Assembly (NCBI RefSeq): GCF_029893235.1
Contig: NZ_JARXWE010000007.1
Coordinates: 1 to 64,000 of the forward strand
DNA: 64,000 nt
From: Dysgonomonas sp. PH5-45
GTDB lineage: Bacteria; Bacteroidota; Bacteroidia; Bacteroidales; Dysgonomonadaceae
Direction of reading: 5' to 3'
Shown here: piece after piece, positions 10,478 through 57,493 of the stretch
Layout of the letters: every line of letters begins with the position of its first letter
Numbering within the stretch: the stretch's first letter is position 1
Position numbers and translations under genes: made by a program
The notes under the pieces: model-generated
Seen by the model: only the letters and a program-made list of their open reading frames with translations
Told to the model about the DNA's origin: nothing
The model's database searches: none

Positions 10478-11059
10478 TTAAAACTTGTATTTGAGGCTCA
10501 CGTCCATGCCTTTCCGGTCGAAGTCGGTCACATAGCGGAACTCTACACCCAAACGGTGATAAAACACTCCGCCACCGATGCCCATTCCACCCAGCGATGA
10601 ATACGACGCCGACACAAACGGCTGCCATACGGGCTGCCGGGCAACGGTCACTTCTTTGTGAATGGGGATGAACTCATAACTAAGCCTTTGCAGCGAATTG
10701 TACTGAACCGAAAGGTCTACATCGAGCCGTCCGTTGCGGTCGTCAAAGAGGGTTTGCTTGTAGCTGCGGCAGGCTGTCCAGTCTTCCACAATCTTAGCCG
10801 AATCTACCACCTGCACCACAAGCCTATCGACCGTATCGGTACGGTAAACGTAAACAGGCTTCGCCGGAATTTCAACCCTGTATGGCTGCGGTACTTCCAC
10901 TATCTGCTTCACCGTATCGCCTTTCACATATTTTATTTCTTCTTTTTCGTTGATTAACTGCCTGCCAAGCAGAAAACCCGCCAAAAAGCAAAGCAAACCC
11001 ACGGCAATGCTTACCCAATGCCTGCTCATACCTCCAAAGTTCTTTTTGCCCGGCTCCAA
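10478..11059 (-). CDS. Phage lysis-cassette protein, DUF6808-like, possible spanin
   Basis: 193 residues with one N-terminal membrane anchor (about 15-30), a charged stalk with paired Thr-Asp-Val repeats (GDTVKQIVEV, RTDTVDRLVVQ), and a beta-rich C-terminal half ending in an outer-membrane-like aromatic (KYKF). It overlaps the end of the GH19 endolysin gene by 34 bp. Position and layout suggest an envelope-spanning lysis factor, but the spanin role is inference. It resembles the DUF6808 proteins of Bacteroidales prophages. It is the last gene of the late operon. Confidence 0.5.
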   Translation of the reverse strand: MEPGKKNFGGMSRHWVSIAVGLLCFLAGFLLGRQLINEKEEIKYVKGDTVKQIVEVPQPYRVEIPAKPVYVYRTDTVDRLVVQVVDSAKIVEDWTACRSYKQTLFDDRNGRLDVDLSVQYNSLQRLSYEFIPIHKEVTVARQPVWQPFVSASYSSLGGMGIGGGVFYHRLGVEFRYVTDFDRKGMDVSLKYKF

Positions 11060-11559
11060 AGCAAGCAGCGGTCGTCGTAACCGTTGTATCCGCCGTTGAT
11101 GATTCGGGTTATTTTTTTGAATGAATTGATGGTATTAAGGTCGGCAAGGTCGTTCAACCCCCGATTGTGCCACCACCAGCAAGCCGAGCGCACGGCATAT
11201 TCGGGCGAAGCAAGTAAGTTGGGATTGGCAAGCAAGTCGATACCGAAAGCCTCCGAAACCTGCTTGTAGTTGCTGCGCCCGGTTATCTGAATCAATCCGC
11301 GCCCTTTGAACTTCACGCCATCGCCTTTGTACACATTGCCCAAATCGCGGCGACCCTCGTAAGCCTTGCCCGAAGCTATTTCTTCCATATACCGAAGCTG
11401 CCCCGACTCGTGCCCTACCTGAGCCAGAAAAGCAGCCCTGCGCATGGGTGTGTTTATCTCGTAAACCTCCATAAACTGGTTCAGAAAAGGCAGCAAAAGC
11501 TCTATACGGCTCTGCTTAGCCTGTGGATATATTGTTTTAACTTGTTCTATTGTTATCAT
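11026..11559 (-). CDS. Glycoside hydrolase family 19 endolysin
   Basis: About 177 residues read from MITIEQVKTIYP at 11559; an upstream Met would add a lysine-rich tail. GH19 features are AFLAQVGHESGQL with the catalytic Glu, then KFKGRGLIQITGRSNY and the Trp-rich SACWWWHNRGLNDLAD. It should cleave peptidoglycan and burst the host cell from the periplasm, released by the holin upstream. It overlaps the holin gene by 23 bp and the next gene by 34 bp, a compact lysis cassette. No signal peptide, consistent with holin-dependent release. Confidence 0.88.
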   Translation of the reverse strand: MITIEQVKTIYPQAKQSRIELLLPFLNQFMEVYEINTPMRRAAFLAQVGHESGQLRYMEEIASGKAYEGRRDLGNVYKGDGVKFKGRGLIQITGRSNYKQVSEAFGIDLLANPNLLASPEYAVRSACWWWHNRGLNDLADLNTINSFKKITRIINGGYNGYDDRCLLWSRAKRTLEV

Positions 11560-11986
11560 TTTTTGTTTCCTCCTTTTCTTCTTCAAATTCAATCAAATCC
11601 GCTTTCTTGCCAAGCAGCTTATAAAATTTCACTTTCACCCGCTTGCCCCGTGCCGCATAATAGTTTACGTAAACACTCTCGGCTTCGATGCAGTATATCA
11701 CCAAGAGCATAATCAGCGGAAGCAGCTCTATGCCAAACGGTTGCCCAAAAGCCTTACCGAAGGCATAAGCCATAACAATCCACATGACGAAGCCTATTAT
11801 TTTATCGACCGTACGCCTCACCGCCCGCGAAAACTTAACCAACTCGCCCCGGTAGCGCGAAGCCGCTATGCCAAACCGCAGGTCGGCACAGGTAAGAGCC
11901 AAAGCCGCCAGCAAAAGCCATTTTGCCCAAACAAAGAAGTGGAACAAGCCAATCAGAAAATTGTCTGTATATGATATTGTATTCAT
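11537..11986 (-). CDS. Phage holin
   Basis: 149 residues with hydrophobic segments at about 15-35, 60-80 and 85-105 and a charged, acidic C-terminal tail (EFEEEKEETK). Pattern and length fit the family 4 holins of Bacteroidales phages. It should form membrane lesions that let the GH19 enzyme reach the wall. It starts the lysis cassette and overlaps the endolysin start by 23 bp. Confidence 0.75.
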   Translation of the reverse strand: MNTISYTDNFLIGLFHFFVWAKWLLLAALALTCADLRFGIAASRYRGELVKFSRAVRRTVDKIIGFVMWIVMAYAFGKAFGQPFGIELLPLIMLLVIYCIEAESVYVNYYAARGKRVKVKFYKLLGKKADLIEFEEEKEETKNDNNRTS

Positions 11987-12328: not shown

Positions 12329-14482
12329 TTACATAGCATTAAGGGTGGTTATGGGGATGCGCACTTGCATGAATGTGCCTGTAATGTCGAAGGCTGGCGA
12401 TTTGATGCCGTTCACCCCCGTAAATTCGGAGTAGAAATCGGGATGTCCGGAAGCAATGTAATTGCCGTCACTGTCTGTCCGCATTTCATTTGCCGCAGGC
12501 GAATTGTTGGCTTTCATACAACGGCAATCGTCCGGGTTCAGATGGAAATAGTAAGGCTTTTGCTTATCTTTCCAGAAATCTTCGTCGATATTCTCAGCGT
12601 TAAAATCGAAGTCCTGCGCCCAGCATCTACGCAAATGGCATGCGCCCTTAAGAGTGAATGTGGTTGTGTCGGTAGCAAGAAACGAACTGAGGCATGGGTA
12701 TGTTTTGCCATTATAAGTAACCGTTCCCGATGTATCGCCTATCGAATTGGGAGCCACAAAATACCAATAACCGGACGACAAGCTTCCCGATGTGATTTTA
12801 TCGCTCGGAATACTCTCCACAATACGTAATTGTACGGTCTGATAATTGATAACATCGCGTACGGGGAGTATCACGGCATTGCTGCTCGGTGTGAACGATT
12901 CCACTCCACTGACGCCCATAAACACATTGTTGCGGGTAACGAGCGACGAGCTGTAAGTAGTGCCTTTGTAAGTCACGGTTGCCTCGTTGTTGTCGTCCGA
13001 GCGAACGATATACATCGTATCGGGTTCGATAGAGGTGTTGGCCTCTATCATCTTTGAGCCATCCCAATAATACTTTTGGTCGTTGTGAACGAATAAACGG
13101 TCGGTAAGCGGTTTTCCACTTCCATCCGCATAATTATCACGACCTACCCAATTGTTATAATACGTATCGCCCACTTTGGCGGCAAATGTATTTTGCCCTG
13201 CAAACATTCCCTTACAGAATACAATGGCTTCGGGCGTTGCCGTAGTACTCATTTGTACAGGCACGGCAACCGTGATGCCATCGAAAGGCTGGTTTAGCGA
13301 CTCGTTTACACCGTCTATTTTATCGAGCTTATGGCCAAAAGCAAAAGTGCTATCTACGGCTACGCCACTATCCACGGGCAGATTGTGCAGTATGTTGAGC
13401 ATATTCAGCTTTCGCAAGCCGCCCAGCCAGATTATGTTACTGTCTATGTACCCTTCGGTGCGAACGGTGGTGTCGGCATCGAGGGTAATATTATTATCGG
13501 ATATCGCAATACTTTCCTTTGGGCTATCCGCATTGAACGAAGCCGCCGCCGTACCATCAGAGGCTATGACTATCGGCTTAACCGTTTGGTTGGAATAACC
13601 GAAGTATATACCCCTTGTTTTTGCAAAGCTGTCTATTTCGCCGCCCTCGATAACATCGTAATCGCCCGCTACGGAGTTGTTGGAAAACACCCAGCGACCC
13701 GCCGGCACATTCGCACCGCCATATTCCGTATAAGCAGGGATATTTGTTATTCCGGCGGCTGTACATCTGTCAACGAAATTCTGACGCAACTCGTCGGCTG
13801 TGTTGCCTGTAAGCAATGTTGCTTCCGTTTCAGTGCCAATCCGGAAAGCCACACGGTCAAATGCCATGTACGTGTTAGATATATTTATCATGTCTGCTTG
13901 CGTAATAATCACACTCCCTCGCACAAATAGCGATGATTGAGAGTATGCGTAGTTCAACACAGGAGATAGTGCAAATCCCGCAGGGTCAACAAATGTTGAT
14001 TGATATATGTAGTACATCCATGTGGCTGCCTTATGATAAATACAATTATATTTTATCTTATTAGTTGCATTGCCCATGGCAACCCAAGAGCTAACGGCAG
14101 ATTCTTTAAGTTCACACCTTTTGTAATACGACGCAACACTACCTATACCCACAACGCGTTGTATGGTCGCATCGCAAATGGACATATATCTACCCGATGT
14201 TTGATTCGAAGTATTCAACACATCTATTACCGTACGATTTATTCCATGCCCTACAATAAACTGAAAGCCGGGGGGATTAGTTGGCATTGTCGCGATTTGC
14301 GGGAAATAACCTATACCAAGAATATTATTCCCTATTTGTGTCATATAGGAATTATTCCATGGGTCGTTTGATGTCCCATTGCTATTGTTTCTGCCAAGTA
14401 CACTAAAAAACCTCGCCGTACTTTTATCAACAATTGCTCCGTACGCATCGTAATACATATCTTTCCATCCGTACTTATCCAT
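12329..14482 (-). CDS. Putative phage tail fibre/receptor-binding protein
   Basis: A 717-residue protein rich in Ser, Thr, Asn and Gly with few charged clusters and no signal peptide. The C-terminal third has repeated short modules of the form VTYxGxTYxxxL (VTYKGTTYSSSL and VTYNGKTYPCLS), each followed by a beta stretch. This is typical of tail fibres and host-binding proteins. It overlaps the preceding 73-residue gene by 8 bp and is followed by the repeat protein and lysis genes. No family is named with confidence. The first 200 residues are more AT-rich in codons than the rest, as in mosaic adhesins. Confidence 0.5.
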   Translation of the reverse strand: MDKYGWKDMYYDAYGAIVDKSTARFFSVLGRNNSNGTSNDPWNNSYMTQIGNNILGIGYFPQIATMPTNPPGFQFIVGHGINRTVIDVLNTSNQTSGRYMSICDATIQRVVGIGSVASYYKRCELKESAVSSWVAMGNATNKIKYNCIYHKAATWMYYIYQSTFVDPAGFALSPVLNYAYSQSSLFVRGSVIITQADMINISNTYMAFDRVAFRIGTETEATLLTGNTADELRQNFVDRCTAAGITNIPAYTEYGGANVPAGRWVFSNNSVAGDYDVIEGGEIDSFAKTRGIYFGYSNQTVKPIVIASDGTAAASFNADSPKESIAISDNNITLDADTTVRTEGYIDSNIIWLGGLRKLNMLNILHNLPVDSGVAVDSTFAFGHKLDKIDGVNESLNQPFDGITVAVPVQMSTTATPEAIVFCKGMFAGQNTFAAKVGDTYYNNWVGRDNYADGSGKPLTDRLFVHNDQKYYWDGSKMIEANTSIEPDTMYIVRSDDNNEATVTYKGTTYSSSLVTRNNVFMGVSGVESFTPSSNAVILPVRDVINYQTVQLRIVESIPSDKITSGSLSSGYWYFVAPNSIGDTSGTVTYNGKTYPCLSSFLATDTTTFTLKGACHLRRCWAQDFDFNAENIDEDFWKDKQKPYYFHLNPDDCRCMKANNSPAANEMRTDSDGNYIASGHPDFYSEFTGVNGIKSPAFDITGTFMQVRIPITTLNAM

Positions 14483-14696
14483 TGTTCACCTCGCTTTCTT
14501 CTGTTAGGGCTACTAAAACTCTCCCTGTGGAGTATATCATTAGGGTTGCGTTGTCTGTATTTATGATACAGCCGCCGTCAAAAGATTGCTTTTGGGCTTC
14601 GGAGGCAAAGACCTGAAATTCTTTCGATTGCCTGTCAAGCATCAGCAAATCGTCTACCTGATAGGTATTTTCGTTATGTTTTATTTCGTATTTCAT
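14475..14696 (-). CDS. Small phage protein, unknown
   Basis: 73 residues (MKYEIKHNENTYQVDD start), acidic, probably a single small domain. It is packed between the 359- and 717-residue tail-type genes, with 5 bp before and an 8-bp overlap after, so it belongs to the late operon. A fibre-assembly helper is possible, but nothing in the sequence shows it. Confidence 0.6.
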   Translation of the reverse strand: MKYEIKHNENTYQVDDLLMLDRQSKEFQVFASEAQKQSFDGGCIINTDNATLMIYSTGRVLVALTEESEVNNG

Positions 14697-14701: not shown

Positions 14702-15781
14702 TTATTGATTTACACGGGTGAATAAATAAACTGTCGCAACACTGTCGACTGTTGCGCGGGTAACACGCAGCAAAGCATCGGTCGGTAACATTGCGCTCAG
14801 GTCGATGCTCGTATCAGCATCCAATGGGATATTTGTCCAATTGGTTGAACTGTCGTTTGGTTTTACTTCCAGCTTCAGCAGGTTCTTGCCGGTTGCCTTG
14901 TAGATGGTCATTGCCTCGCCTATCGGTAATATATTTTCCGTGAGTTCCGTAACAAAGGCTATGCGGCGTTCAAATCTCGCACTGTTGAAGGCTTCGGCCA
15001 AATCCGTACCGTTCCACAAATACAACCTGTCGTCACACGAATAAACCTTGTTGGGGAAGGGACAGTCCGTGCCGAAAACATCCTTCGTATTGTAGTAAGT
15101 GAAGGTAACGTCATCGCCGGGTATCACATTGGTATATACAACATTGCCATCGTTATTGATTCTCGCGCCAAAACAACGGGATGCCGTGCTGTAATAAATA
15201 CCCTCGAACGTGCCATCCGCACCCACTTTTTGGATAGGAGTATCAATAAAGCCCTCGAAGACAGGGTTTACCAAATCGTGATACACAACCGGGACATTGT
15301 CGCCGTTCAGTTTGTCGGCTTTGTTGTTCAATTCCGAAAGTGTGTCGACATTGTAATCGGCCAACGTTTTCCATTTTTCGTAAGTAGCATTACCCCCTAC
15401 AATAGCCCCCCATCGCCAAATAATTGTACCACGAGCCGCCGTGGCCGTTAGGTCGATGGTTCCATCTTCCTTAACGAGCAAATCGCCAAAAACAACCTGC
15501 ACAGTCCTGTTGGGTTGCGCTCGCCAAGTCATTACCTGATAGGTAGATACACGGCCTGTTATGTCTACACTCCAATTCTTTTTGCCTTCCGTAGTTGTGT
15601 ATTCGGCAATAGTATCGAGCGATGCTATAAAATCAGAAAATGAATCGAACGATTTTGTGCTCCAACTACTGTCTTTTATAATATCCTCAAGCACCCCGCC
15701 AACACGCTCGGCGGTATTAGCACCGGCTTCGGTTTCTTCTTTTATTTGTGTGGCTCTGCTTAATAAAGTTTCGTCTGCCAT
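14702..15781 (-). CDS. Putative phage tail/baseplate-associated protein
   Basis: A 359-residue soluble protein. Residues 1-45 look like a helical attachment segment (DETLLSRATQIKEETEAGAN), and the rest is beta-rich with WNGTDLAEAF and FERRIAFVTE. N-terminal helices of this kind occur in tail fibre or neck appendage proteins of Bacteroidales phages. It follows the connector-like gene by 5 bp and leads into the fibre-like genes. The exact role is not determinable from sequence. Confidence 0.5.
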   Translation of the reverse strand: MADETLLSRATQIKEETEAGANTAERVGGVLEDIIKDSSWSTKSFDSFSDFIASLDTIAEYTTTEGKKNWSVDITGRVSTYQVMTWRAQPNRTVQVVFGDLLVKEDGTIDLTATAARGTIIWRWGAIVGGNATYEKWKTLADYNVDTLSELNNKADKLNGDNVPVVYHDLVNPVFEGFIDTPIQKVGADGTFEGIYYSTASRCFGARINNDGNVVYTNVIPGDDVTFTYYNTKDVFGTDCPFPNKVYSCDDRLYLWNGTDLAEAFNSARFERRIAFVTELTENILPIGEAMTIYKATGKNLLKLEVKPNDSSTNWTNIPLDADTSIDLSAMLPTDALLRVTRATVDSVATVYLFTRVNQ

Positions 15782-15786: not shown

Positions 15787-16317
15787 TTAATCTCCTATTA
15801 TTGAAATTCGTAATCTGTTTTTTTGCTTACCTCCGCCAAAAGCCGCGAAATGATCTTTGCGGGCTTGCAGGTATGCCAAGCACTCGCCCATATAGGTGTC
15901 GGCCACTGTGCGGGCATCTTTCTCGGCAGCAAGGCGTTCCTGCAATTCGGCTTGAGTGGAATACTGGTCTTGTTTTTCGACAAAACCGAAACGGGTAACC
16001 GAAAAGCTGGTTTGCCGCACCAACCGCGCATACACATAATAGTTGAGCGCCATGCGCAAGCCTGCAAACTCACGAAGGTTGCCTCGGCAGTCTTCGTACT
16101 GCCCACCATCCATCAATTGGGCAAAGTCGGGCAAGCCGGCAGGCGGATTATCGCCAGCCCACTCTTTGAGCTGCACGTAAAGGGCATCGCCAAGCTGAGG
16201 TTTCACATCGAGCCGTTCGGCCTCGTCGATACAAAGACCGATACGGCCATCGTCAACGTGTTTCGACACGAAGCGCGTGTTCTGTTTTATCTGTTCAATT
16301 GTTGTCAGTTGTTTCAC
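15787..16317 (-). CDS. DUF6712-like phage protein (probable head-tail connector)
   Basis: A 176-residue protein starting MKQLTTIEQIKQNTRFVSKH, followed by helices (DEAERLDVKPQLGDALYVQL, LRMALNYYVYARLV), like DUF6712 proteins of Bacteroidales phages. It overlaps the end of the portal gene by 23 bp. All-helical proteins directly after the portal are usually head completion or connector subunits; that is an inference from position and predicted fold. Confidence 0.6.
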   Translation of the reverse strand: MKQLTTIEQIKQNTRFVSKHVDDGRIGLCIDEAERLDVKPQLGDALYVQLKEWAGDNPPAGLPDFAQLMDGGQYEDCRGNLREFAGLRMALNYYVYARLVRQTSFSVTRFGFVEKQDQYSTQAELQERLAAEKDARTVADTYMGECLAYLQARKDHFAAFGGGKQKNRLRISIIGD

Positions 16318-17458
16318 TCGATACGTATTTTAAAGGTTCAATCGTAAAGTCGGTAGTGGGCACAGCCATGTGCCAATACCTGAATATCTTATCGAAAGCA
16401 CGCTCTATCATGCGGCGTTGCGTTCCGGTAACCGTAGAATAATTTTCGTAAGCCTCAACAAGCACCTCGCTCGAAAAGCCCAAGCTCCCCTTGCGGATGC
16501 GATGCCATGCCTCCTGCCCAAAAGCAGAATAGATTTTCTCGCAAGCCGTATCGCTGGTCACGCTATAATCCTGATCGTAATTTGTTCCGCCAAAAGACAC
16601 AAACTGAGGCACTTCCTCATCGTACTCTACTTCCACGTGCAGAATCTTATTGGTGTTTACATCGCCCTGAATCTTAGCCACTTCTTCGGCAATGGAGAGC
16701 GAATCGAAAGCCGATTCCTCGTTTTCGGCCGATATGTTCATGCCCCGCTTTGTGACAAGCATGCCCGAAGGATTGAAGTTGTTGCGGGTATTGCGGTAGG
16801 CGATGTTCGACAAGCCTTCTTCGGTCGACATCTGAGTAACCACACAGTCGTAAACGGCTTTCGGATACTCTTGCTTACCTGCGCTCGACACCCAGAGAAT
16901 CTGCCCCTTGTAAGCTTCCAATCCGCCGGCATCGGCAATCTGCTTCTGCACAGTGTCTTTGTCGGGATTGAAGATGTCGATATAATCGACCGTATCGCGT
17001 GTGGGGCGAAGCACCTTCGTGCCGCGGCGTTTGGTTCCGCTCCAATCAACAAAGACCGCAATGCGCGACACAAAGCCCTGCTCGTCTTCCTCGCCCAAGC
17101 GGCAATTCTCGAACGGAACGTGGTACACCTCAACTATTTCGCCCAAAGCATCGTAATTGACGTGGAGGGCAAATCCATCGAAGGAGGCAAGGTCGTCGGC
17201 CACCTGTTGCAGAATGTCGTCGGCCGTGTCGCCCATCGCATTGAGTACCGTCTCGGCAAAAGCCACATCCTTGAACCCGTTGCCCTGAATGAACTGAACG
17301 TAACGGTTCAGGCAGCTTGCCCCCGACTCGGAGTTTGCCACAATGGCCTTGATATCCTGCGGATAGAGGTTGTTATGATTGTAAGCCTGAATGCCAAGGT
17401 GGGCGATGGAAGGCACATCTATCCGTTTTTCGGCATCTTTTACTGTTTTTACATTCAT
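16295..17458 (-). CDS. Phage portal protein
   Basis: A 387-residue protein resembling portals of Bacteroidales siphoviruses: an N-terminal helical wing (YPQDIKAIVANSESGASCLN), the DGFALHVNYD beta region, a central stem region with YRNTRNNFNPSGML, and a C-terminal clip with QRRMIERAFDKIFRYWH. It would form the 12-mer ring through which DNA enters the head. It is slightly short for a portal (many are 400-500). It overlaps the preceding gene by 4 bp. Unusually, it lies downstream of the capsid and tail tube genes and about 31 kb from the terminase. Confidence 0.65.
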   Translation of the reverse strand: MNVKTVKDAEKRIDVPSIAHLGIQAYNHNNLYPQDIKAIVANSESGASCLNRYVQFIQGNGFKDVAFAETVLNAMGDTADDILQQVADDLASFDGFALHVNYDALGEIVEVYHVPFENCRLGEEDEQGFVSRIAVFVDWSGTKRRGTKVLRPTRDTVDYIDIFNPDKDTVQKQIADAGGLEAYKGQILWVSSAGKQEYPKAVYDCVVTQMSTEEGLSNIAYRNTRNNFNPSGMLVTKRGMNISAENEESAFDSLSIAEEVAKIQGDVNTNKILHVEVEYDEEVPQFVSFGGTNYDQDYSVTSDTACEKIYSAFGQEAWHRIRKGSLGFSSEVLVEAYENYSTVTGTQRRMIERAFDKIFRYWHMAVPTTDFTIEPLKYVSSETTDNN

Positions 17459-17952
17459 GGGTTAATGTGTTTTCTCTGTTTTTTTACTCGTTTTGGTTGA
17501 TTTTCGGTTTGCAGGGCTGCTTCCGTTTCGTTTTCGGGTGTTTCTTCACTGCTTTGCGGTTGGGGTTCGTCTTGTTCTATAAGCTCCTTCCAGTTTTCGG
17601 GATAGCGTGAGAAAAGACCGATACGGTGCGGATTGTCTTTGAGCCAAAGCAAGGCTATCTGGTCGGTCATGTTAGCGTTGGTCACAATTTCTTTGAAACG
17701 TGCCGATTGGAGAACAACTCCGTTGCATAATCTGAATTTTGACATAGGTCTGAGTCCGTGTTTTTTTAAGGTTGTGTACATTTCTATAAAAGCATCGTTG
17801 TAGCATCGGCCACACGAAGTTCGTGCGAAGGGGCGGAAAGTTATCCGCTCGTAGTACTGTTCTATAAACCTGCGGTCGGAAGAAGAAAGCCCGCCCGACA
17901 AGGAGCGAGCTTTCATTTCTTGAAGCAGGCTCATGATTTCCTGCTCTGTCAT
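17455..17952 (-). CDS. Phage protein, unknown
   Basis: About 165 residues from MTEQEIMSLLQEM at 17952, which sits clear of the tail tube gene; the longer ORF would overlap that gene by more than 100 bp. It is basic and helical with three Cys (SCGRCYN, RLCNG) that could bind metal, and ends in an acidic, Gln/Glu-rich low-complexity tail. The CGRCYNDAFIEMY pattern recalls small proteins encoded beside portals in Bacteroidales prophages. Role unknown. It overlaps the portal start by 4 bp. Confidence 0.6.
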   Translation of the reverse strand: MTEQEIMSLLQEMKARSLSGGLSSSDRRFIEQYYERITFRPFARTSCGRCYNDAFIEMYTTLKKHGLRPMSKFRLCNGVVLQSARFKEIVTNANMTDQIALLWLKDNPHRIGLFSRYPENWKELIEQDEPQPQSSEETPENETEAALQTENQPKRVKKQRKHINP

Positions 17953-17971: not shown

Positions 17972-18580
17972 TTAAGCCTGTGCTTCGTCGAGCAAAGTTT
18001 TAAATGCCGCTGTCGAAGCTTCGGCCGAACCCGCGTAAAGGAATAGAGCCGATTTTGGCACTTTTGTTTCGGTAAGAACAACGTTCCATCCGCCTTCGGT
18101 ATCGTCCGAATATTTGTCGTTTTCTAAGGTTGAAGCCTTCAAGCCTTGGTAATAACCAACTATCTGGTAAGTAGCTGCTCCCGGACTTGTTGTTTTTTGC
18201 AAGCCTTTGTATTTGTTTTCGTAAACGACAACAAATTCGCCGGTTGCCAACGCGTCGATAATCTGAGCCACTTCGGGGCCGTTATCAAGAATCACGAAGC
18301 CAAGGTTGTTGGTAAAAGTCTTGCGGTTTGTACCTTCTTCCATCGTTGTGGTGGTTCCGCTGAAAGGAGTTGGCGTAGGCACATAAATTTTGTAACCTTT
18401 CGTTCCTTCGTTCAGAGTCAGTTTTTCGATAATATTCTTATTATCATTATTGAATGCGACTTCCGAAAATTTTATATCCTTACGGTTGATTATCACACCG
18501 TTTGCTTCGATACCTTTCACTACAAGGTCTTCGCATGTTACTTCGATATCTTTTTCTAAGATTCCATCACAATATCCCAT
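17972..18580 (-). CDS. Putative major tail tube protein
   Basis: A 202-residue beta-rich protein starting MGYCDGILEKDIEVTCEDLV, with small hydrophobic strands and no signal peptide, like the tail tube proteins of Bacteroidales siphoviruses. It is read from a leader AACACAAACACTTAAAACAC shared with the capsid gene, the usual sign here of a highly expressed structural gene. It would polymerise into the tail tube around the tape measure. The assignment is by size, fold pattern and place, not by a decisive motif. Confidence 0.5.
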   Translation of the reverse strand: MGYCDGILEKDIEVTCEDLVVKGIEANGVIINRKDIKFSEVAFNNDNKNIIEKLTLNEGTKGYKIYVPTPTPFSGTTTTMEEGTNRKTFTNNLGFVILDNGPEVAQIIDALATGEFVVVYENKYKGLQKTTSPGAATYQIVGYYQGLKASTLENDKYSDDTEGGWNVVLTETKVPKSALFLYAGSAEASTAAFKTLLDEAQA

Positions 18581-18690: not shown

Positions 18691-19770
18691 TTAGTATCCG
18701 AAACGAACAAGGTCGTTTTCCCAGACAAGCGTACCTATCTCGTCACGAACGAGCATACGGTTCACTTGGTCGTCTTTCGAGAACCAGATATCGAGTTCGC
18801 CAACCAGATTTTCGGAAGCTACACCCGCCCAAAGAGCCGAACGAGAGGCGTAAACCACACGGTGAGGCTTGTTGTAAGTGGTTCCGTTGTCTTCGAAGGC
18901 GGCAATCATATCGTCCCAGATAGGCAAAGCGATGATTTCCTGACCGTTGAACTTGGTTGCGCTGATGAATCCGTCGAAAAGCGATTCCCATTGCAGGTCT
19001 GAGCCTGTGGTGCGCTTCACGTCGATAGCCAAAGCATCGGCAAACGATTGAGTTGCCAAAACAACCTTGTCTGAAGCCTGACGCAAACGCATGTCGGCGT
19101 TGTAAATCAAATCGTCGAAGATGGCTGTTGCCACGCCGGCAGCGCGAAGGTCGTCGCGTTGCGCCTTGTAAGTAGCCGAGCCATTGGCGTCTATTTCAAC
19201 ATGTTGATCGGGATTGGCTGCCGTAAGAGCAAACAAGCGTTTGAAAAGTCCGTCGCACACATCGAAGTATTTTGTGTCGACAGTGTCGGTTACAATACCG
19301 CCCGCCGATACGTTCTTAGCGTCTTTGTCGCCAAACCAGAACAAACGCCACAACATGCGTGTCAATGCTTCGCGCAGGCGAGGCTCAACGATAAGGTCTA
19401 TGTAGTCTGTACCTGTAAGGTCGGCAACGCTCGTTTTTGTACGCATCGCATAGCGAACCAATGTTTCTTTAAGGTCTTTGTAGCAGATTTCTTCGGCTAC
19501 GGTAAATTCGCCCAAATCCCACTCTTTTTCTTGGGTGGCGATAGCCGTTGCGTTAAACTGCGGACGGCAGGCGTTCTGAATTTCGCCCACAAGCCCCATG
19601 TTGCCTATTCCGCCTATCTTTTTGCCATGAATGGCTCCGGGCTGAACGGTGAGTACCTTTTCAATAGCTTCGCTCTGAAGCACCGATAAGAACAGAAGCT
19701 CGCGCAAATTGGTTACGGCTCCGTTATCGGGAGTTAGGTTTTTAATAAAATCTTGTCCTGTACTTGCCAT
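18691..19770 (-). CDS. Phage major capsid protein
   Basis: A 359-residue protein with the layout of HK97-fold capsid proteins in Bacteroidales phages: an N-terminal arm (MASTGQDFIKNLTPDNGAVT), the E-loop and P-domain region, then a long helix (YIDLIVEPRLREALTRMLWR), and a C-terminal A-domain with IIALPIWDDMI and VYASRSALWAG. It directly follows the ClpP-type protease and scaffold gene, the normal order. It forms the DNA-containing head. It has the same leader motif as the tail tube gene. The ORF is intact. A run of eight G/C pairs at about 18664-18671 lies just downstream. Confidence 0.78.
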   Translation of the reverse strand: MASTGQDFIKNLTPDNGAVTNLRELLFLSVLQSEAIEKVLTVQPGAIHGKKIGGIGNMGLVGEIQNACRPQFNATAIATQEKEWDLGEFTVAEEICYKDLKETLVRYAMRTKTSVADLTGTDYIDLIVEPRLREALTRMLWRLFWFGDKDAKNVSAGGIVTDTVDTKYFDVCDGLFKRLFALTAANPDQHVEIDANGSATYKAQRDDLRAAGVATAIFDDLIYNADMRLRQASDKVVLATQSFADALAIDVKRTTGSDLQWESLFDGFISATKFNGQEIIALPIWDDMIAAFEDNGTTYNKPHRVVYASRSALWAGVASENLVGELDIWFSKDDQVNRMLVRDEIGTLVWENDLVRFGY

Positions 19771-20930: not shown

Positions 20931-20974
20931 TGTAATTTTGTGTTTGTGTGGAAGGCCCTTTTCTTCTTGAACCT

Positions 20975-27792: not shown

Positions 27793-27811
27793 AGAGCAAA
27801 TGTTAAAAATA

Positions 27812-29770: not shown

Positions 29771-29821
29771 AAATCCACCACGAATTTAGTAACCAACACT
29801 TTAAAACAACATAGAAACATT

Positions 29822-47792: not shown

Positions 47793-49007
47793 TCACTCCA
47801 TCCGTGTGGTGCGTACTTTGGGTTTGCCTATGCGTTTTGCCTGCCCCAGCTTGTTGAGGGCAACGTAGCGAATGGCGTCCAGGGCGTGATTGTTGGCATC
47901 GACAGGCTCATTGATGGTGTGCCCCTCGCGGCTTTTTTTCCATTTGTAGGCAAGAACCTCACGGCAGATATTCTCGCTGCGGCGGGTGATGTTGAGGCGG
48001 TAACGGCGCAAGATGTCGATGCCGTTTTTCACACTGTCGGGGCCTTTGTGCGCTGCCTCTACACGAAAACCCATGTTGCGAAGTTCGGCAATGCTTTTAG
48101 GCTCGGCACTGTCGGCTACGATGTTTACATCGGCGGTTATGTCGTTCTCGCGCAATACGGAGGCAATATCGGGGTTGGTAAGCCCTTGGCGGTAGCATAT
48201 TTCGTCCAAAAACAGCTCTCCTCCCGAAAGCCGTATATCGACAATGGCCGTGGGGTCGTTCGTGAAGCCGAAGTCCACACCCAACCACCGGTGTTTGGCA
48301 TCGTGGGGAACGGCATCCACCAGTTGCCATTGGCTGAAGATAAGCCCTTCTACCCTGCCCGTCAGCCCCCGTGCGTAGATGCGGAAAAGCTCATCGTCGG
48401 CAATCGACTCTATGCGGCGGTGTTCGTCGTCGCTCAAAAAAGGGTTGTGCCTATGGTCTGAAATAATGAGTTCAACATCGGGGTTGCCTATCAGCTTATC
48501 GTGCACCCAAAAGCGATGCGTGGGATTGTAGTCTATAAATACGCGGTGGCGGGTACGGATGGCAAGCTGCCAATAAATGTCGTACCCTATACCGTTGGCC
48601 TCGTTCACGAAGAGGATATCACGCTTTCCGCTGCGGGCGTCTTGCTCGTCGGTATAGCTTTTGAACTCGATGATAGACCCGTTGCGGCATGTAAATATGC
48701 GGTCGCTCTCGTTGGGGCGGGCAAACCATTGATGGTACAGGCGGCTACCCATCCATATGTTCTTGGCATCGCGATACGCCCCCGACCTCAGGTTCGGGAT
48801 ATCCTGCCCCACAACCGTCGTCACCAGATTAGGCTGCTGCATGCTCAAGGTAAAGAGCAAATCGAGGATGGCGTAAGTCTTGCCCGAACTTGTCCCTCCC
48901 TGATTCACCACCACCCGTTTGGGCGATGTGTAGTTCTTTATGAAAAGCGGCGGTTTGCTGAGTTTTTGCCGATTAGCGTCCATCAACATCGTTCTCATTT
49001 TGGGCAA
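47793..49007 (-). CDS. Phage terminase large subunit
   Basis: A 404-residue DNA-packaging motor. ATPase half: Walker A GGTSSGKT (37-44), Walker B ILFVNEAN (131-138). Nuclease half: GVDFGFTNDPTAI (Asp245), VADSAEPKS, and DANNHALDAIRYV near the C-terminus with the third acidic cluster. It cuts concatemeric DNA and pumps it through the portal. Overlaps the small subunit gene by 35 bp. Intact, but 23 kb or more from the portal and capsid genes. MRTMLMDAN at 48998 is an alternative start. Confidence 0.93.
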   Translation of the reverse strand: MPKMRTMLMDANRQKLSKPPLFIKNYTSPKRVVVNQGGTSSGKTYAILDLLFTLSMQQPNLVTTVVGQDIPNLRSGAYRDAKNIWMGSRLYHQWFARPNESDRIFTCRNGSIIEFKSYTDEQDARSGKRDILFVNEANGIGYDIYWQLAIRTRHRVFIDYNPTHRFWVHDKLIGNPDVELIISDHRHNPFLSDDEHRRIESIADDELFRIYARGLTGRVEGLIFSQWQLVDAVPHDAKHRWLGVDFGFTNDPTAIVDIRLSGGELFLDEICYRQGLTNPDIASVLRENDITADVNIVADSAEPKSIAELRNMGFRVEAAHKGPDSVKNGIDILRRYRLNITRRSENICREVLAYKWKKSREGHTINEPVDANNHALDAIRYVALNKLGQAKRIGKPKVRTTRME

Positions 49008-49488
49008 AGGTTTGTGCTTTCACTCCTGTCATGGGGGCAATCAGGAAGTGGGCGTTCATCGTATCGCCTGTCATTTCAATTTTTTCCTTAAAAGCAGCCA
49101 CGTTCACATGCCGCCCAATCAGTTCGAGGGCTTTCAGGGCATTCGTAGCGTCAAATTCGTACACGGCATTGCCTTGACTATCGGTCACTTCCTTGCCTCT
49201 CTGCGTTTTTGGTTCCACTTGCTGCATACATCGCTCGTGCAAGGCCACAGCCTGACGCAGTACGTAGTCCGAATCTATTTGCAAACGCCTATTGCGCTCG
49301 TCCATCAGATTTTGTACACAAAGCTGCACATTGGCGTTTTTAAGCAAGCGGCTTCCTAAATGCTTTGCCGAACGGGAGCTATATCCGGCACGGACAGCGG
49401 CCTGCGTTGCATTAAAGTCGATGAGGTACTCCCTGCAAAAAACTTCCTGCCGGGGAGTAAGTAGATTGTGTTTCTGACTGTCAGTCAT
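48973..49488 (-). CDS. Phage terminase small subunit
   Basis: About 171 residues from MTDSQKHNLLTPRQEVF at 49488; the longer ORF covers the promoter. The terminase_2 signature LTPRQEVFCREYL-DFNATQAAVRAGY is followed by SAKHLGSRLLKNANV, a DNA-binding helix-turn-helix. It recognises the packaging start and recruits the large subunit. The leader AACACAAACCCC and a late-promoter motif lie directly upstream. Confidence 0.9.
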   Translation of the reverse strand: MTDSQKHNLLTPRQEVFCREYLIDFNATQAAVRAGYSSRSAKHLGSRLLKNANVQLCVQNLMDERNRRLQIDSDYVLRQAVALHERCMQQVEPKTQRGKEVTDSQGNAVYEFDATNALKALELIGRHVNVAAFKEKIEMTGDTMNAHFLIAPMTGVKAQTFAQNENDVDGR

Positions 49489-49517
49489 ACAATAAAATAG
49501 TTTTGGGGTTTGTGTTA

Positions 49518-49537
49518 TCTCTAATATAATAAAAAAC
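49518..49537 (-). promoter_or_regulatory. Late-promoter motif upstream of the terminase genes
   Basis: The minus strand reads GTTTTTTATTATATTAGAGA: T-run plus TATATTAGA core, 30 bp before the small subunit start. Confidence 0.65.
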
Positions 49538-49699
49538 AATGAGATATGGAAATAAATAGCACACAAAAGTAATGACGGCAACTCATTTCGAACTCACGTT
49601 AGTTTAATAAAAGCAGATAAAAAACGGATATTACAAAAATTGTTTATCTTTGGCACAAAGAAAAAATGTACATAAATTTTAACTTGTCAGAAAAACACT

Positions 49700-52210: not shown

Positions 52211-52768
52211 ATGCAAATCACAACAAAAACCTCTTACAAGGATTTTCTGTTAATGGTCGAGATTTTCCACTTGGGCGACAAGGAACTGACCGAGATTTTT
52301 GAACGGGTGAAAGACCACCCTCTACCCCAAGAGTTCGACGTTGACTTCGATTCGCTCGTTTTTGGGCAACTATGTCAATTGCAGCAGATGAAAACCGTGG
52401 GCGACCTCTTCGTCAACTCCTTCTACATTCTACTCAAGATGCCCGAAGCCGAACTCATGCAGCACACAGCAGCCGATTGCCTCAGGTTTATTTGGCACGT
52501 AAAAACACAGTTGGAGCGCATCACCGAGCTTTTCAGCGCTATCCACTACAAACCCTCGCCCGAAGAGGTAAGGGCTGGTATAGAGAAAATGAATCACGGA
52601 TTTTTCGGTACTGCCGACTGGTACGCCCGCCGCATGGGTATCACCGACCACGAGGAAGTGTTCCAAACCAACTGGATGCGCATATACAAAGCCATGAAGA
52701 TAGACTTCGAGAACAACCGCTTTGAACAGAACTACCGCAAAGTGATTGAGCAAAAAAATAAACGGTAA
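52211..52768 (+). CDS. Putative tail assembly chaperone
   Basis: A 185-residue helical acidic protein (FLLMVEIFHLGDKELTEIFE; FIWHVKTQLERITELFSAIH; ADWYARRMGITDHEEVFQTN). Size and pattern fit the tail assembly chaperones that bind the tape measure and normally precede its gene. Here the tape measure gene is 27 kb away, yet both carry the same 20-bp promoter. The assignment is inference. First gene of the tail module; a MITE-like repeat follows it. Confidence 0.45.
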   Translation: MQITTKTSYKDFLLMVEIFHLGDKELTEIFERVKDHPLPQEFDVDFDSLVFGQLCQLQQMKTVGDLFVNSFYILLKMPEAELMQHTAADCLRFIWHVKTQLERITELFSAIHYKPSPEEVRAGIEKMNHGFFGTADWYARRMGITDHEEVFQTNWMRIYKAMKIDFENNRFEQNYRKVIEQKNKR

Positions 52769-53030: not shown

Positions 53031-53468
53031 ATGGTAGAAACTAAAATCAGGCAGATTGTCGAAAAAATCGGCGGACTGCACTACGAATTCAACGACTGGA
53101 CGCGCACCAACGCCACCATCGACTACACCTCCCTGCCCGTGTGCGTAAACGTATTGCCCGTATCGGGGAAACTTTCGAACAAAAACGGAAACCTGCGCGA
53201 CTATCCCAACTGCCTTATCGCTTTCATGGACAAGGCCGAACTCGACTTCGAAGGAGCCGAAAACGAAATCACCGTCAACCGCATGAAAGGCTATGCAAAA
53301 CGCTTCATTGCCGAAGCCAACCGTTCGGGGTTGTTCCAGCCCATCACCGCCGATGTGCCTTACTCCGTGGTTTACGACTTTCTGGATGCCAACCTTACGG
53401 GCATCGCCATCGAGCTGCAACTCAAAGAATCGGTGGGCGATTGTCTGGATAACACGCTGAACCCATGA
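53031..53468 (+). CDS. Phage structural protein, unknown (tail module)
   Basis: A 145-residue alpha-beta protein (MVETKIRQIVEKIGGLHYEF; TSLPVCVNVLPVSGKLSNK; VVYDFLDANLTGIAIELQLK). Matching small proteins lie in neck or tail modules of Bacteroidales siphoviruses. Its leader TTTAAACACAAACTTTATT is phage-type. Overlaps the next gene by 4 bp. A tail terminator or neck role is possible. Confidence 0.55.
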   Translation: MVETKIRQIVEKIGGLHYEFNDWTRTNATIDYTSLPVCVNVLPVSGKLSNKNGNLRDYPNCLIAFMDKAELDFEGAENEITVNRMKGYAKRFIAEANRSGLFQPITADVPYSVVYDFLDANLTGIAIELQLKESVGDCLDNTLNP

Positions 53469-53938
53469 GTGGCGAAGCCAACATCGCACCCTTGCTCAAC
53501 GACCTCTGCCAGAGCATTGCCCGCGGTTATCTGACGGCAGCCCAGCAGGCTTACGGGGCAGACCGTGTAACCCTTGCCCAAGAGGAAGAGGCTTTTACGA
53601 TAGAGGGCGACGACAACGCCTCCTTTCTGCACTGGTTATCGGAGCAGGAGCAGCAACCCCTCAACCTGTTCCAAGCCGTCAGGTTATGGATCGAAGAAGA
53701 AGGCGCCGCATACAAAAACATTCCTTACATACGCAAGGAGTCGGAACGGTGGAAACCCCGCTATACGCCCCAAGAGCGTGGATTGATGAGCCTTTCGGGA
53801 AAGATTGCCTACAAAATGCAGCAAGAAGGCGTCAGCCTGAAAAACCCGCAACCTACAGCTCAAGACGCCGAAGTAGACACCCAAGAGATAGAAGCACTCA
53901 TCGGCGAGGCGCTATCCGATATTATTTCACAACTTTAA
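53465..53938 (+). CDS. Phage structural protein, possible head-tail joining protein
   Basis: 157 residues, mostly helical, with VRLWIEEEGAAYKNIPYIRK then PRYTPQERGLMSLSGKIAYK, a pattern seen in neck/tail completion proteins of Bacteroidales phages. It starts within the end of the previous gene (ATGA overlap) and precedes the 378-residue gene by 28 bp. The role is inferred from context. Confidence 0.55.
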   Translation: MSGEANIAPLLNDLCQSIARGYLTAAQQAYGADRVTLAQEEEAFTIEGDDNASFLHWLSEQEQQPLNLFQAVRLWIEEEGAAYKNIPYIRKESERWKPRYTPQERGLMSLSGKIAYKMQQEGVSLKNPQPTAQDAEVDTQEIEALIGEALSDIISQL

Positions 53939-53966: not shown

Positions 53967-55103
53967 ATGGCACAAAAATCAACCGATACACTAAGCGTTT
54001 CGTATCCCGACCTTGGGTTCGCGTTCAACCCTATCACCCTGCGTTTCACCTACACGCCCGATATTCAGCCCGAAACCGAGATACGTGTTCTGGCAAACGG
54101 AATAGAACTGGTGCGCGAAACCCGCGACCAAGAGGTAACGTTCGACCTCTCGGCTGTGGCACGTTCGCTTTTCGACCGCGACCGCTTCCACCACATCCCT
54201 TTCTTCGACAATGTTCTCTGTAAAACGCTATCCGTCAGCATAACATCCACAACCACAACCGACGAGGAAGAAGCCGAAATCAACATCGCTATCCCCGTCA
54301 TTTGGGGTGCTTTGCAGATTGGCGAAACCTACTCTCAAAGCAAAACACTCACCATGTTTCGCGGATATCCCTTCACCGTGCCTTACTACGAAGGACGGAC
54401 AACCCGTTTCAGCTACACCTTGCAGTATGGCGGCCAGAGGTATCTCGTAACGGTAAACAACAACTCCAAAGGCTCCACCCCAAAATACAACCTCCCCTTA
54501 CCCGACGACTTGGACGAGAGCATCCACAAAGTGGAATACATCATGGGCGGACAGAACGTGCAGGTAGGCCCTTTCGATTATACCTTCGACGATTCGTTCC
54601 TCGTTTACGAAAAACAGGCGGGCGGCAACGACTTGCTGATGACCGTAAACATCGAAACACCCTGCTACAACGACGGATTTTACCTCCGCTGGATAAACCG
54701 CTGGGGCGAATGGAACTACTATCTTTTCCGCAAGAAGGGCGAATCGACACAGGTGGCCGATTCGAGCATCGTTTTCGACCCCTATTTCGACACCATCGAC
54801 TTCACCGACGGATACCACGTAGGCACAGGGAAAACGGTAGGCAAAACAGCCCAGAAAACCATTCAACTGTACGCTTCGCTGGTCGATGCCGACACCTACG
54901 ACTTCCTTTCGCAGATAGCACAATCACCTGTCGTAGATCTGTTTATGGGATACGCCGAGCAGGAAGTGGATGGCCAGCCGCAAACCATAGCCCGTTGGGC
55001 AAGCGTGCGCACCCAAGCCGCTACCTTTGCAAAGGGCAAAGACCATTTGCAGGACTTCGAGCTGAACATGCTTATCCCTCAAACACAAACCCTTAACCTT
55101 TAA
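53967..55103 (+). CDS. Phage tail protein (distal tail/baseplate-type), putative
   Basis: A 378-residue beta-rich soluble protein with no signal peptide (STDTLSVSYPDLGFAFNPIT; FRGYPFTVPYYEGRTTRFSY; WGEWNYYLFRKKGEST). The C-terminal half has a fold-like stretch ending DLFMGYAEQEVDGQPQTIA. Its place before the large tail protein suggests a distal-tail or baseplate hub component. No decisive motif. Confidence 0.5.
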   Translation: MAQKSTDTLSVSYPDLGFAFNPITLRFTYTPDIQPETEIRVLANGIELVRETRDQEVTFDLSAVARSLFDRDRFHHIPFFDNVLCKTLSVSITSTTTTDEEEAEINIAIPVIWGALQIGETYSQSKTLTMFRGYPFTVPYYEGRTTRFSYTLQYGGQRYLVTVNNNSKGSTPKYNLPLPDDLDESIHKVEYIMGGQNVQVGPFDYTFDDSFLVYEKQAGGNDLLMTVNIETPCYNDGFYLRWINRWGEWNYYLFRKKGESTQVADSSIVFDPYFDTIDFTDGYHVGTGKTVGKTAQKTIQLYASLVDADTYDFLSQIAQSPVVDLFMGYAEQEVDGQPQTIARWASVRTQAATFAKGKDHLQDFELNMLIPQTQTLNL

Positions 55104-55123
55104 CAAAAAAACCGACTTACCAG

Positions 55124-57493
55124 ATGAGAGAAGTATTTATAAACAACCAGCGGGTAGATATGGAAGGCGATGGCTATGCCGCCATGATATACCCTTCGCC
55201 CATCTTCAAGGATTTGAGCAGCATACAGTCTAACGGAACCACCACCTTCACCCTGCCCAAAACCGAGCGTAACCTTGCCATCATCGGTTGCAGCGACCAA
55301 GCCGACGTGCGCGGCGATTTTCCGTACAGCGAATATACCTTCGAGGAATACCGCAACGGTATCCCCGTTATCCATAACGGGCGATGCAAGCTGCTGAAAA
55401 TAGGTGAAAAAATTGAACTGGCCACCGTATGGGGGCCAAAGGTAAATATGAGCGACTTGCTCAAAAAGAAGCTCACCGAACTTGAGCCTTACTCCGTCAC
55501 CCGCGACGAAGACGGAAAACCACATTACAGCAAACCAGAAGCCAGCGAATCAGAAAACTTCGTTACATGGAGTTCGGGTACATCTTTTCTTTCGGCCGAC
55601 AGTAACGACGATTTCGGCTTCCTCTGTGCCGACTTCGGCATGGGGGTTAAAGACACCCGCTACATGCACCCCTCGGCACGCGCCACCTACGTTATAGACC
55701 AGATTGGCGCGAATATGGGCATGGATATCCGCTTCAAGAACGACGAGGTGAGGCAAACCCTTGCTCACAAATGGCTGCCACTGCCCACACGCAATGCCAA
55801 TATACTGACTTGGACAAGAAACAGCGATTATAAGTTTCCGAAAAGGTTCTTGAATTCGTTCGACGATAACCTCGGATACAACATAACCAATGTTGAAGTT
55901 ATAACCCCCAACCAGAATTCTGAAATTCTGAAAGAATACCCCGAAACTCCCGGAAACTACGCCTTTTCGATGTATGGAGAGATTTGCCTTTCGGTAGAAT
56001 ACTTCCTCAGAGAAAACTACTGGGTGAGGGAATACGGTTATTCCTGGGACGATATCCGCTACAAGGAAGTGGTTGTGCGGAAAGACGAAGACCAACCCGA
56101 AGAAATTGTAGACCTGAGGGGCGATACCACCATGTATAACGTCGAAATATCGTATGCCGGAAACACTTACCTTTTCCCTTTAGAAGAAAAAGCACAAACC
56201 TACCGCGAGTATTTCAAGGGGGGACACCCCCTTAACGCGCCGGGAACCAACAGCCCCTTCTGGGACATGCGCCTGGTTGTTGTCCCCATCAGCGAGGAGG
56301 TGGCTAAGTTTGTGGAGTTCACTGCCGAACCCAGCGACAGCAACGTTGATAGAGCCACCGACATGTATGCCACAATGAGGCTACGCAAAAGGATAGTCAC
56401 CGACGGAAAGGTTAGCTTCCGCTATTACGAGATTCCCTTCAGTACAGATGTGCGCTACAATCCCGGCGGATTTGAAACAGACCCGCTGCCCGGCTCGTCC
56501 GAGGGGTTGAACAAAAATCCGGAGATAGGCAACGGAATGCCCTCCTCCATTATCGAAGGAGGGGGAGGAAACCCTTCCGGCCCCATGTTTTGTTACCTGC
56601 CCACCTCGGCAAACTGGGTAACCGTATTCTTTACCCTCTACAAGCGCCCCGACGAGGTGAAGCCCGGAGAGTCGTTCCCCATACTGCATAACCTGCCAGA
56701 TATTACCTGCCTCGACTTCATGAAGTCTATCATGCAGATGTATGGCCTATATCCGCAGTATTTACCAAAGGAAAACGTCCTCGAGCTGGTTTCTATCGAC
56801 CATATATACCAACGCGTGCCCGAAGCCGACAACTGGAACGGCCGCCTTGTTGCAAACAAGGGAATCATACCCATAGAGCACACCATAAACGACTATGCGC
56901 AAAAAAACTGGATGCGATACACGCAAGACGATGTGAAGCGCACCGATGCCGACGGTTTTGTGGTGGTAAACAATACCGCGCTCAGCGACGAGAAAAACAT
57001 CTTCGAGATTAAGTTTGCAATTACCGAAAACCACAACGGGCGTGTAAACGACAATTCTCAGCGATCCGTGTTCGCGTACATGCCCTGCTACGAACCCGGC
57101 AAAGTAACCGACGACGAGCCAAAGCCCGAACCAACATTCAGAGGGAAAATTAAACCAAGACTATTGAGTGAGGGAGAATATAATATATCTGCTAATTCCC
57201 AAAAAAAAATAAAAAAGCTAATCTTTGATAAGCCTCTTCAGTTCGGTTCTTTCACACTCAAGGAAGACGAAGTATGCTTGATACCTGTCTATTACAGTAA
57301 ATACCAACGGGTGGTGCGCCGCCCTGTGGCCATTGAGTGCTCGGTATATATGAGCGATATGGATATACACCGCTTTGAGGCAACCCGTCCTGTTTATCTG
57401 AAAGGACAGTACTGGATGCCTATACAGGTTAGTATAGATGCAAAAAATCTGGCAAAGTGTAAGCTACTACTGATGCCGGAGACGACGAAGTAA
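55124..57493 (+). CDS. Large phage tail protein, putative tail tip/baseplate
   Basis: A 789-residue protein. The start MREVFINNQRVDMEGDGYAA and following FKDLSSIQSNGTTTFTLPKT match large tail proteins encoded after the tape measure in Bacteroidales phages. The middle holds VGFLC-ADFGMG-type beta regions, and DYAQKNWMRYTQDDVK lies near 600. DNA at about 57135-57240 (residues 670-705) is much more AT-rich than the rest, like a replaced segment. Last gene of the tail module; a bidirectional terminator follows. Confidence 0.55.
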   Translation: MREVFINNQRVDMEGDGYAAMIYPSPIFKDLSSIQSNGTTTFTLPKTERNLAIIGCSDQADVRGDFPYSEYTFEEYRNGIPVIHNGRCKLLKIGEKIELATVWGPKVNMSDLLKKKLTELEPYSVTRDEDGKPHYSKPEASESENFVTWSSGTSFLSADSNDDFGFLCADFGMGVKDTRYMHPSARATYVIDQIGANMGMDIRFKNDEVRQTLAHKWLPLPTRNANILTWTRNSDYKFPKRFLNSFDDNLGYNITNVEVITPNQNSEILKEYPETPGNYAFSMYGEICLSVEYFLRENYWVREYGYSWDDIRYKEVVVRKDEDQPEEIVDLRGDTTMYNVEISYAGNTYLFPLEEKAQTYREYFKGGHPLNAPGTNSPFWDMRLVVVPISEEVAKFVEFTAEPSDSNVDRATDMYATMRLRKRIVTDGKVSFRYYEIPFSTDVRYNPGGFETDPLPGSSEGLNKNPEIGNGMPSSIIEGGGGNPSGPMFCYLPTSANWVTVFFTLYKRPDEVKPGESFPILHNLPDITCLDFMKSIMQMYGLYPQYLPKENVLELVSIDHIYQRVPEADNWNGRLVANKGIIPIEHTINDYAQKNWMRYTQDDVKRTDADGFVVVNNTALSDEKNIFEIKFAITENHNGRVNDNSQRSVFAYMPCYEPGKVTDDEPKPEPTFRGKIKPRLLSEGEYNISANSQKKIKKLIFDKPLQFGSFTLKEDEVCLIPVYYSKYQRVVRRPVAIECSVYMSDMDIHRFEATRPVYLKGQYWMPIQVSIDAKNLAKCKLLLMPETTK

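Follow-up and report, generated by a model that had tools for sequence, protein, structure and literature searches.

Gene transfer agents (GTAs) consist of proteins of caudoviricete origin, form particles like those of tailed phages, package mostly random host DNA and deliver it to other cells; their genomes are fully endogenised, often at multiple loci, are not or cannot be fully packaged, and are inherited mostly vertically, co-diverging with the host (PMC9662315). The GTA of Rhodobacter capsulatus (RcGTA) is encoded at five loci (PMC9662315) and the Bartonella GTA (BaGTA) is associated with run-off replication (PMC2697382, PMC6899734). Here we describe a set of phage-type particle genes in 64,000 nucleotides of DNA from Dysgonomonas sp. 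PH5-45 (contig NZ_JARXWE010000007.1, positions 1 to 64,000; hereafter the window). We put it forward, with our judgement evenly balanced, as a phage-derived particle system that has been taken over by its host lineage, domesticated and GTA-like, and that is less dispersed than its relatives.

Genes are known for only a few GTAs, those of alphaproteobacteria, Brachyspira and, recently, Faecalibacterium; in the open-access literature that we searched there was no GTA of Bacteroidota or of Dysgonomonas. As in RcGTA, tailed-phage particle genes appear to have been endogenised and dispersed, no integration genes were found with them, and in relatives from sister genera they also show vertical inheritance and purifying selection. 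Unlike RcGTA, which belongs to a different phylum, the set in the window retains a CI/S24 repressor together with replication genes and a complete small terminase (TerS), all in one island. The analogy with BaGTA lies in having particle genes and a phage-type replication module in the chromosome, and some relatives differ in having particle genes without dnaC. Complete particle genes under an SOS-type repressor also recall PBSX of Bacillus subtilis, a domesticated and defective prophage that likewise combines a full set of particle genes with an SOS-responsive repressor, but PBSX is one contiguous cluster.

Particle genes in the window and in Dysgonomonas sp. 520

Open reading frame (ORF) calling with PHROG and Pfam family searches gave a complete siphovirus-like particle set in which all ORFs are open and most of the particle genes match their PHROG families over the full length. 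Matches of the terminase, portal, protease, tape measure, tail and endolysin genes mark the set as caudoviricete-derived. The late genes form three units on both strands, at 10478-24979 (minus), 47793-49581 (minus) and 52211-57493 (plus), and an early module at 27.1-33.1 kb carries an S24 repressor, small genes, an O-like replication protein and a DnaC-like loader. None of the window ORFs scanned was recognised as an integrase, a transposase or a recombinase of another kind, whereas an active prophage would be expected to hold a recombinase inside the element. The preliminary description of this DNA had reported an unbroken particle gene set at these positions, the lack of integrase and transposase genes among them, and repressor and replication-type genes; the gene calls and family matches agree with it on each of these points.

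The nearest orthologous set is that of Dysgonomonas sp. 520 (G093), which is identical to the window set at 87% in the capsid, 83% in the portal and in tail gene B, 72% in the large terminase (terL) and 69% in the repressor. There it occupies five loci on two contigs (C68 and C7), and on C7 alone it spans 84 kb. The loci are terS-terL (C68:139.6-141.2 kb), one tape measure with tail genes A-E (C68:112.8-119.8 kb), a head-to-lysis block that runs from a small gene to the spanin (C7:62.6-73.2 kb), another tape measure (C7:83.9-85.8 kb), and a locus of PAP2, an outer-membrane-type protein (OMP) gene, two small genes and the repressor (C7:1.3-7.3 kb). Genes that are of housekeeping type, judged from their sequences (enolase, rhomboid, ABC-F proteins and similar), separate these loci, and no dnaC was found in this genome. 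Two breaks are common to the window and strain 520: terS-terL is parted from the tail genes, and gene E is parted from the tape measure. A span of at least 84 kb should exceed what a head holds that is sized for 57.5 kb, the genome length of Bacteroides phage BS-TP3 (PQ571276).

Between the window and strain 520, upper bounds on the ratio of nonsynonymous to synonymous substitution (dN/dS) were 0.04-0.12 for both terminase genes, for the capsid, portal, tube and adaptor, for tail genes A and B and for the small conserved gene, and 0.18 for the endolysin. Synonymous sites are near saturation, as they are in the host genes for feoB and a peptidase, so the divergence of the two sets is an old one. 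The dN/dS comparison proposed at the outset thus points to purifying selection on the genes measured.

Strain 520 has two different tape measure genes for one particle set (C7:83944-85830 and C68:117884-119800, loci L045 and L085; 628 and 638 aa), which possibly give two tail lengths.

A related dispersed set in sister genera

Searches that used terL, the portal and the capsid as queries found a related set in the sister genera g3 and g4, for which we used 23 genomes with a completeness of 90% or more and a contamination of 5% or less (genus and family names of the relatives, apart from Dysgonomonas sp. 520, are inferred ones). It is present in single copy, portal and terL in 22 of the 23 genomes and the capsid in 20 (one match being partial). 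In G026, which is a single contig, the loci spread over 493 kb, with terL at 4.539 Mb, portal at 4.986 Mb, tape measure at 5.000 Mb, protease-capsid-tube-fibre-spanin at 5.016-5.023 Mb and dnaC/repO at 5.031-5.032 Mb; in G037, also a single contig, they spread over 185 kb (portal 2.796 Mb, capsid 2.830, two tail genes 2.842, terL 2.979). Both spans should exceed the content of a 57.5-kb head. The set is compact, at about 30 kb, in G008 and G027. Its flanks are collinear across species, as at terL of G026 and G009, where there are neighbours at 97% and 92%. In IMG/VR, the nearest phages with a contiguous set share about 50% identity in the capsid and lie on contigs of about 38 kb with a one-strand order.

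These scattered genes have diverged together with their hosts. Pairwise dN values followed those of feoB in Mantel tests, with r=0.84 for the portal, 0.82 for terL and 0.51 for the capsid (p=0.001 in each case), and the unlinked portal and terL loci were correlated with one another in dN (r=0.84). At dS under 1.5, capsid and portal had dN/dS values of 0.01-0.16, and terL had values of 0.04-0.19. The dnaC gene evolves faster (median dN/dS 0.27), is more often missing than the particle genes and is absent from some g4 genomes that keep them. With vertical inheritance and purifying selection outside a prophage context, the g3/g4 set would qualify as a GTA on genomic criteria, and GTA-like domestication is strongly indicated by the genomes of these genera and of strain 520.

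Catalytic residues of terL are invariant in the alignment, and this bears on the reading that a domesticated particle has been kept for another job than DNA delivery, for example as a PBSX-like killer particle. The fibre, the lysis genes and the SOS-type repressor would suit a bacteriocin equally, and the conservation data fit killing and DNA delivery alike. Pure tailocins have lost their head genes, whereas here the capsid, the portal and a terL with invariant catalytic residues have been kept, as expected if DNA packaging matters; PBSX packages DNA too, which weakens that expectation. We regard the killer particle as improbable.

The genes suggest that the window holds the same kind of system as g3 and g4, with some modules in common and with another head and tail. 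Common to the window and to the Dysgonomonas-type set, as we call that in G008:C10, G026, G037 and others, are the terL family (42-45%), the fibre (about 50%), the holin (60-62%), the repressor, the replication protein and the DnaC loader (51-61% to 16 chromosomal homologues in the family), and no integrase was seen in the Dysgonomonas-type set. Among deposited phage genomes the window dnaC, holin and fibre are matched only weakly (dnaC at best at 25-33%, the holin at 47% in a partial match). The Dysgonomonas-type set differs from the window in its capsid and portal lineage, its wider dispersal, its lineage-wide conservation and in that no close TerS was found near its terL. Close copies of TerS occur within the family in G000 and G093 only; the few g3/g4 matches are weak and, save for one small low-completeness contig, lie on contigs other than that of the conserved terL.

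Some smaller observations concern the Dysgonomonas-type loci. What look like pieces of the set, of 10-16 kb and in one case 39.7 kb, are listed as proviruses in IMG/VR (L286-L291, L294). A 201-aa protein with no family match follows dnaC in G008, G009, G016 and G026 (L101:19314-19919 and homologues) and may be a late regulator of the dispersed set. A lipoprotein with the motif FVWNGDWNDPNDPNY..YNPIEG.W is convergent to the baseplate-like gene in eight of the eight readable loci (L100:7313-7801, L088:14061-14495, L264-L268, L271) and was found nowhere else in 1.36 Mb; it is a possible conserved partner, for example of release, immunity or adsorption. A lipoprotein position beside the tail-tip gene recurs in the window, in strain 520 and in eight Dysgonomonas-type genomes. 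As a shared component, the lipocalin-like lipoprotein at this position was ruled out as homology: the window protein was picked up by a profile built with the signal peptide included, but a model built on the mature part matched neither the window nor the strain 520 protein and found only the eight Dysgonomonas-type copies in the 1.36 Mb.

Gene order, island and insertion site

The first late unit lies on the minus strand throughout. Its lysis cassette comprises a spanin-like membrane protein (10478..11059; assigned by position, with no family match and with the same place in strain 520 and G008:C10), a chitinase-like endolysin of glycoside hydrolase family 19 (11026..11592; phrog_181, E=3.8e-62; PF00182; 61% to strain 520) and the holin (11537..11986; PF05105 slightly under the cut-off). 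The tail fibre or receptor-binding protein (12329..14482), of which the C-terminal part is 50% identical to the G008:C10 fibre, is followed by a small fibre-associated protein (14475..14696) whose homologue sits between the G008:C10 fibre genes, and by a second fibre protein (14702..15781; phrog_38537, E=9e-5). Then come a head-tail adaptor, its role taken from its position beside the portal (15787..16317; phrog_24616; 68% to strain 520), the portal itself (16295..17458; phrog_11226, E=7e-138; 49% to BS-TP3), a conserved structural-module protein (17455..17952; phrog_37138) and a tail tube or head-tail protein (17972..18580; phrog_21217; 79% to strain 520). The major capsid protein (18691..19770) belongs to a family of unknown function (phrog_38780, E=2e-135); its AlphaFold model is poor (mean predicted local distance difference test score 40.5) and it has no PDB sequence match, so its identity is assigned by synteny, from its position and the annotation of the BS-TP3 homologue. 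A ClpP-like head maturation protease (19827..21017; phrog_94/1684; PF00574), a small conserved protein between protease and tape measure (21877..22107; phrog_17790; 88% to strain 520) and the tape measure protein (22235..24979; phrog_37298, phrog_20660) complete the unit.

The second unit, also on the minus strand, consists of terL, the packaging ATPase and nuclease, in which the Walker A motif and the RNase-H aspartates are invariant (47793..49007; PF17288, PF04466), and terS (48973..49581; PF03592 over residues 41-171). The third, on the plus strand, holds tail module genes A (52211..52768; phrog_28240), B (53031..53468; phrog_33245; 47% to BS-TP3) and C (53465..53938; phrog_31246), the distal tail gene D (53967..55103; phrog_37065) and the baseplate or tip gene E (55124..57493; phrog_33698), which has N-terminal similarity (E=5e-5) to an 870-aa gene of the Dysgonomonas type. 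In the early module a CI/LexA-type repressor with helix-turn-helix and peptidase S24 domains (27082..27888, minus; phrog_4; PF00717; homologue at G093:C7:6545-7345) is accompanied by small genes at 28264..28515 (minus) and 29123..29494 (plus), whose homologues adjoin the strain 520 repressor, and at 29819..30037 (plus; 51% to a homologue in the strain 520 early locus). An O/DnaD-like replication initiator follows (30174..30863, plus; phrog_19658, phrog_270; 34% to G008:C10), of which none was seen in the strain 520 early locus, and then the DnaC-like helicase loader (32516..33118, plus).

Homologous protease, capsid, tube, portal, adaptor, tail and tape measure genes are contiguous in BS-TP3 and in loci of Prevotella corporis (L128), a Prevotella metagenome-assembled genome (MAG; L175) and a Ca. 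Azobacteroides MAG (L104). There they follow a canonical order on one strand, namely terL, tail A-E, tape measure, small gene, protease and capsid, with tube, portal and adaptor coming after the capsid in BS-TP3 and L012. In the window this order has two breaks, one separating terL from tail A and the other separating tail E from the tape measure, and the tail module is inverted; three late units on both strands stand where an active prophage would be expected to have the one operon of these relatives. BS-TP3 differs further in carrying integrases and more replication genes. No terL relative of the window was found in the scan of viral contigs. Most of the best 80 terL relatives (L105-L182) come from Mucilaginibacter species, a genus in which such phages look near-universal; as a further dispersed system they were ruled out, and they look like ordinary prophages because their tail genes follow terL contiguously where readable.

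The island is bounded by a peptidase gene (9103-10278) and feoB (58882-61359). In both same-genus genomes (G001 and G002) these two genes are adjacent, about 0.7 kb apart, and in G002 dacA and folP are collinear at the site. The stretch from 10.3 to 58.9 kb is therefore one insertion of about 48.6 kb relative to the congeners or, less simply, what a deletion removed from the congeners' ancestor. The separated chromosomal loci of the preliminary description, three in number, are ruled out by this arrangement, and its proposal that locus order be compared in relatives has had a divided outcome, with scattered blocks in strain 520 and in g3/g4 and a single insertion in the window. A comparison of the two end regions for attachment-site repeats showed one A-rich 10-base word in common and nothing longer.

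The view that ordinary chromosomal genes lie between the blocks holds in part. Genes of non-phage type are present (lipoproteins, MBOAT, a Por-secretion protein, a Cthe_2159 protein, DUF488, GLUG proteins, a CAAX protease, an OMP-type protein, PAP2, DUF3307 and SatD). The OMP-type gene (44787..45983, minus), which among eight genomes tested has a homologue (53%) in strain 520 only, on the contig of its particle block, and the adjoining PAP2 phosphatase gene (46574..47398, minus; PF01569; 46% to a homologue beside the OMP-type gene of strain 520) form a pair at 44.8-47.4 kb that may belong to the element, because in strain 520 it is linked to the repressor module. The SatD-DUF3307 pair (50133-51561) adjoins terS and is found 3-9 kb upstream of terL in two Bacteroidota loci (L133 and L145); DUF3307 also matches the phage moron family phrog_2470. 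Small lipoproteins flank most phage blocks (25160-26721, 33138-33623, 49700-50053, 57564-57920); five were recognised by eye in the island, where a sixth pattern match looks spurious, and three pattern matches, one of them spurious, lie in the 42.7 kb outside.

A clean single insertion relative to two congeners is what would be expected of a temperate prophage of about 48 kb that entered between peptidase and feoB, gained cargo (MBOAT, secreted proteins, PAP2/OMP, lipoproteins), was rearranged inside and is still packageable and mobile, perhaps with the help of a recombinase that escaped recognition or of another element on which it hitch-hikes. Its size would be prophage-like when set beside the 57.5 kb of BS-TP3, its terS, repressor and replication genes are intact and its presence within the genus is patchy. 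We think this unlikely: against it stand the lack of a recombinase among the scanned ORFs, the single short word common to the island ends, the division of the late genes into three units on both strands, and an orthologous set in strain 520 that has stayed intact with its loci spread over at least 84 kb.

Dispersed repeats of about 150-170 bp, in two families of which one has 'gaagaatct...caggatgac'-like ends, occur in the window at 28908-29062, 29607-29776, 32262-32440, 39018-39170, 46287-46493, 47512-47656, 51604-51798, 52829-52966 and 61385-61510. There are 57 matches in the whole genome and 17 places on the contig of the window, and they are as dense inside the island, with 9 copies in 48.6 kb, as outside it, with 8 in 42.7 kb; as the cause of the break-up of the blocks the repeats are thus unsupported. 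Nine copies in the island, some between phage genes, and congeners without the element might be taken as signs of a decaying defective prophage, with recent repeat-mediated rearrangement and gene insertions and with genes intact for want of time. This too we consider unlikely, since the particle genes are all open despite near-saturated synonymous sites relative to strain 520, with the low dN/dS bounds given above, since a related dispersed set is retained across species in g3/g4, and since the repeats are no denser inside the island than outside. The source assembly is a draft of 75 contigs, and with so many repeats unrelated contigs could have been joined at them. A chimera of that kind is highly improbable: the copies seen are 67-96% identical and none is exact, dispersal recurs in strain 520 and in the single-contig genomes G026 and G037, and the linkage of the PAP2/OMP pair to the element recurs in strain 520.

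Proposed working and significance

Several findings weigh against the GTA-like reading of the window itself. All of its set lies in one 48.6-kb insertion that the congeners lack, and portal and terL are absent from both G001 and G002, a pattern that lends no support to co-inheritance within the genus. A span of 48.6 kb would fit a head of the BS-TP3 class, TerS is an intact, full Terminase_2 protein, and replication genes have been kept. The capsid and portal come from a BS-TP3-like lineage, the portal being only 24% identical to that of g3/g4, so that the best-supported domesticated set is related to the window only in part. For the GTA-like reading, which had been raised at the outset, speak strongly the dispersed set of strain 520 and the dispersed, intact, vertically inherited and selected set of g3/g4. 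In terms of endogenisation at multiple loci, the window has separated blocks in one island with no recombinase found, strain 520 has five loci, and the g3/g4 set extends over up to 493 kb. Vertical inheritance is seen for the g3/g4 set (Mantel r 0.51-0.84), and the window set has one dispersed orthologue, that of strain 520. GTA-like domestication of the window set appears probable from these comparisons; we do not class it as a GTA, and it probably works like one.

Inactivation of the SOS-type S24 repressor would switch on the separate late blocks in trans, and the particle would be assembled from their products. Genes that lie scattered cannot enter a particle as a single genome, and we propose for that reason that the terminase packages chromosomal DNA. 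Holin and endolysin would then release the particle, and the fibres would direct delivery of the DNA to relatives in the manner of a GTA. The replication module in the window may amplify neighbouring DNA, by analogy with the Bartonella GTA. With no visible means of integration or excision, the window set would be past self-propagation. We suggest, more tentatively, that Dysgonomonadaceae-type bacteria have vertically inherited GTAs whose particle genes are scattered, some of them singly and up to about 490 kb apart, and are nonetheless intact, and that the window holds a second system, which derives from a different phage lineage and has not yet dispersed as far.

If this is true, Bacteroidota would gain their first GTA, going by the literature searched. 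Virus catalogues would then need to be read with caution, as short proviruses listed in them are fragments of such sets. Bacteroidota, a dominant phylum of the gut, would have a route of gene exchange owned by the host, with a tractable model in cultured relatives of Dysgonomonas. The genomes of the family, in which the sets range from compact (about 30 kb) to scattered nearly gene by gene, would for that reason record how a phage becomes an organ of its host and which genes are the first to go.

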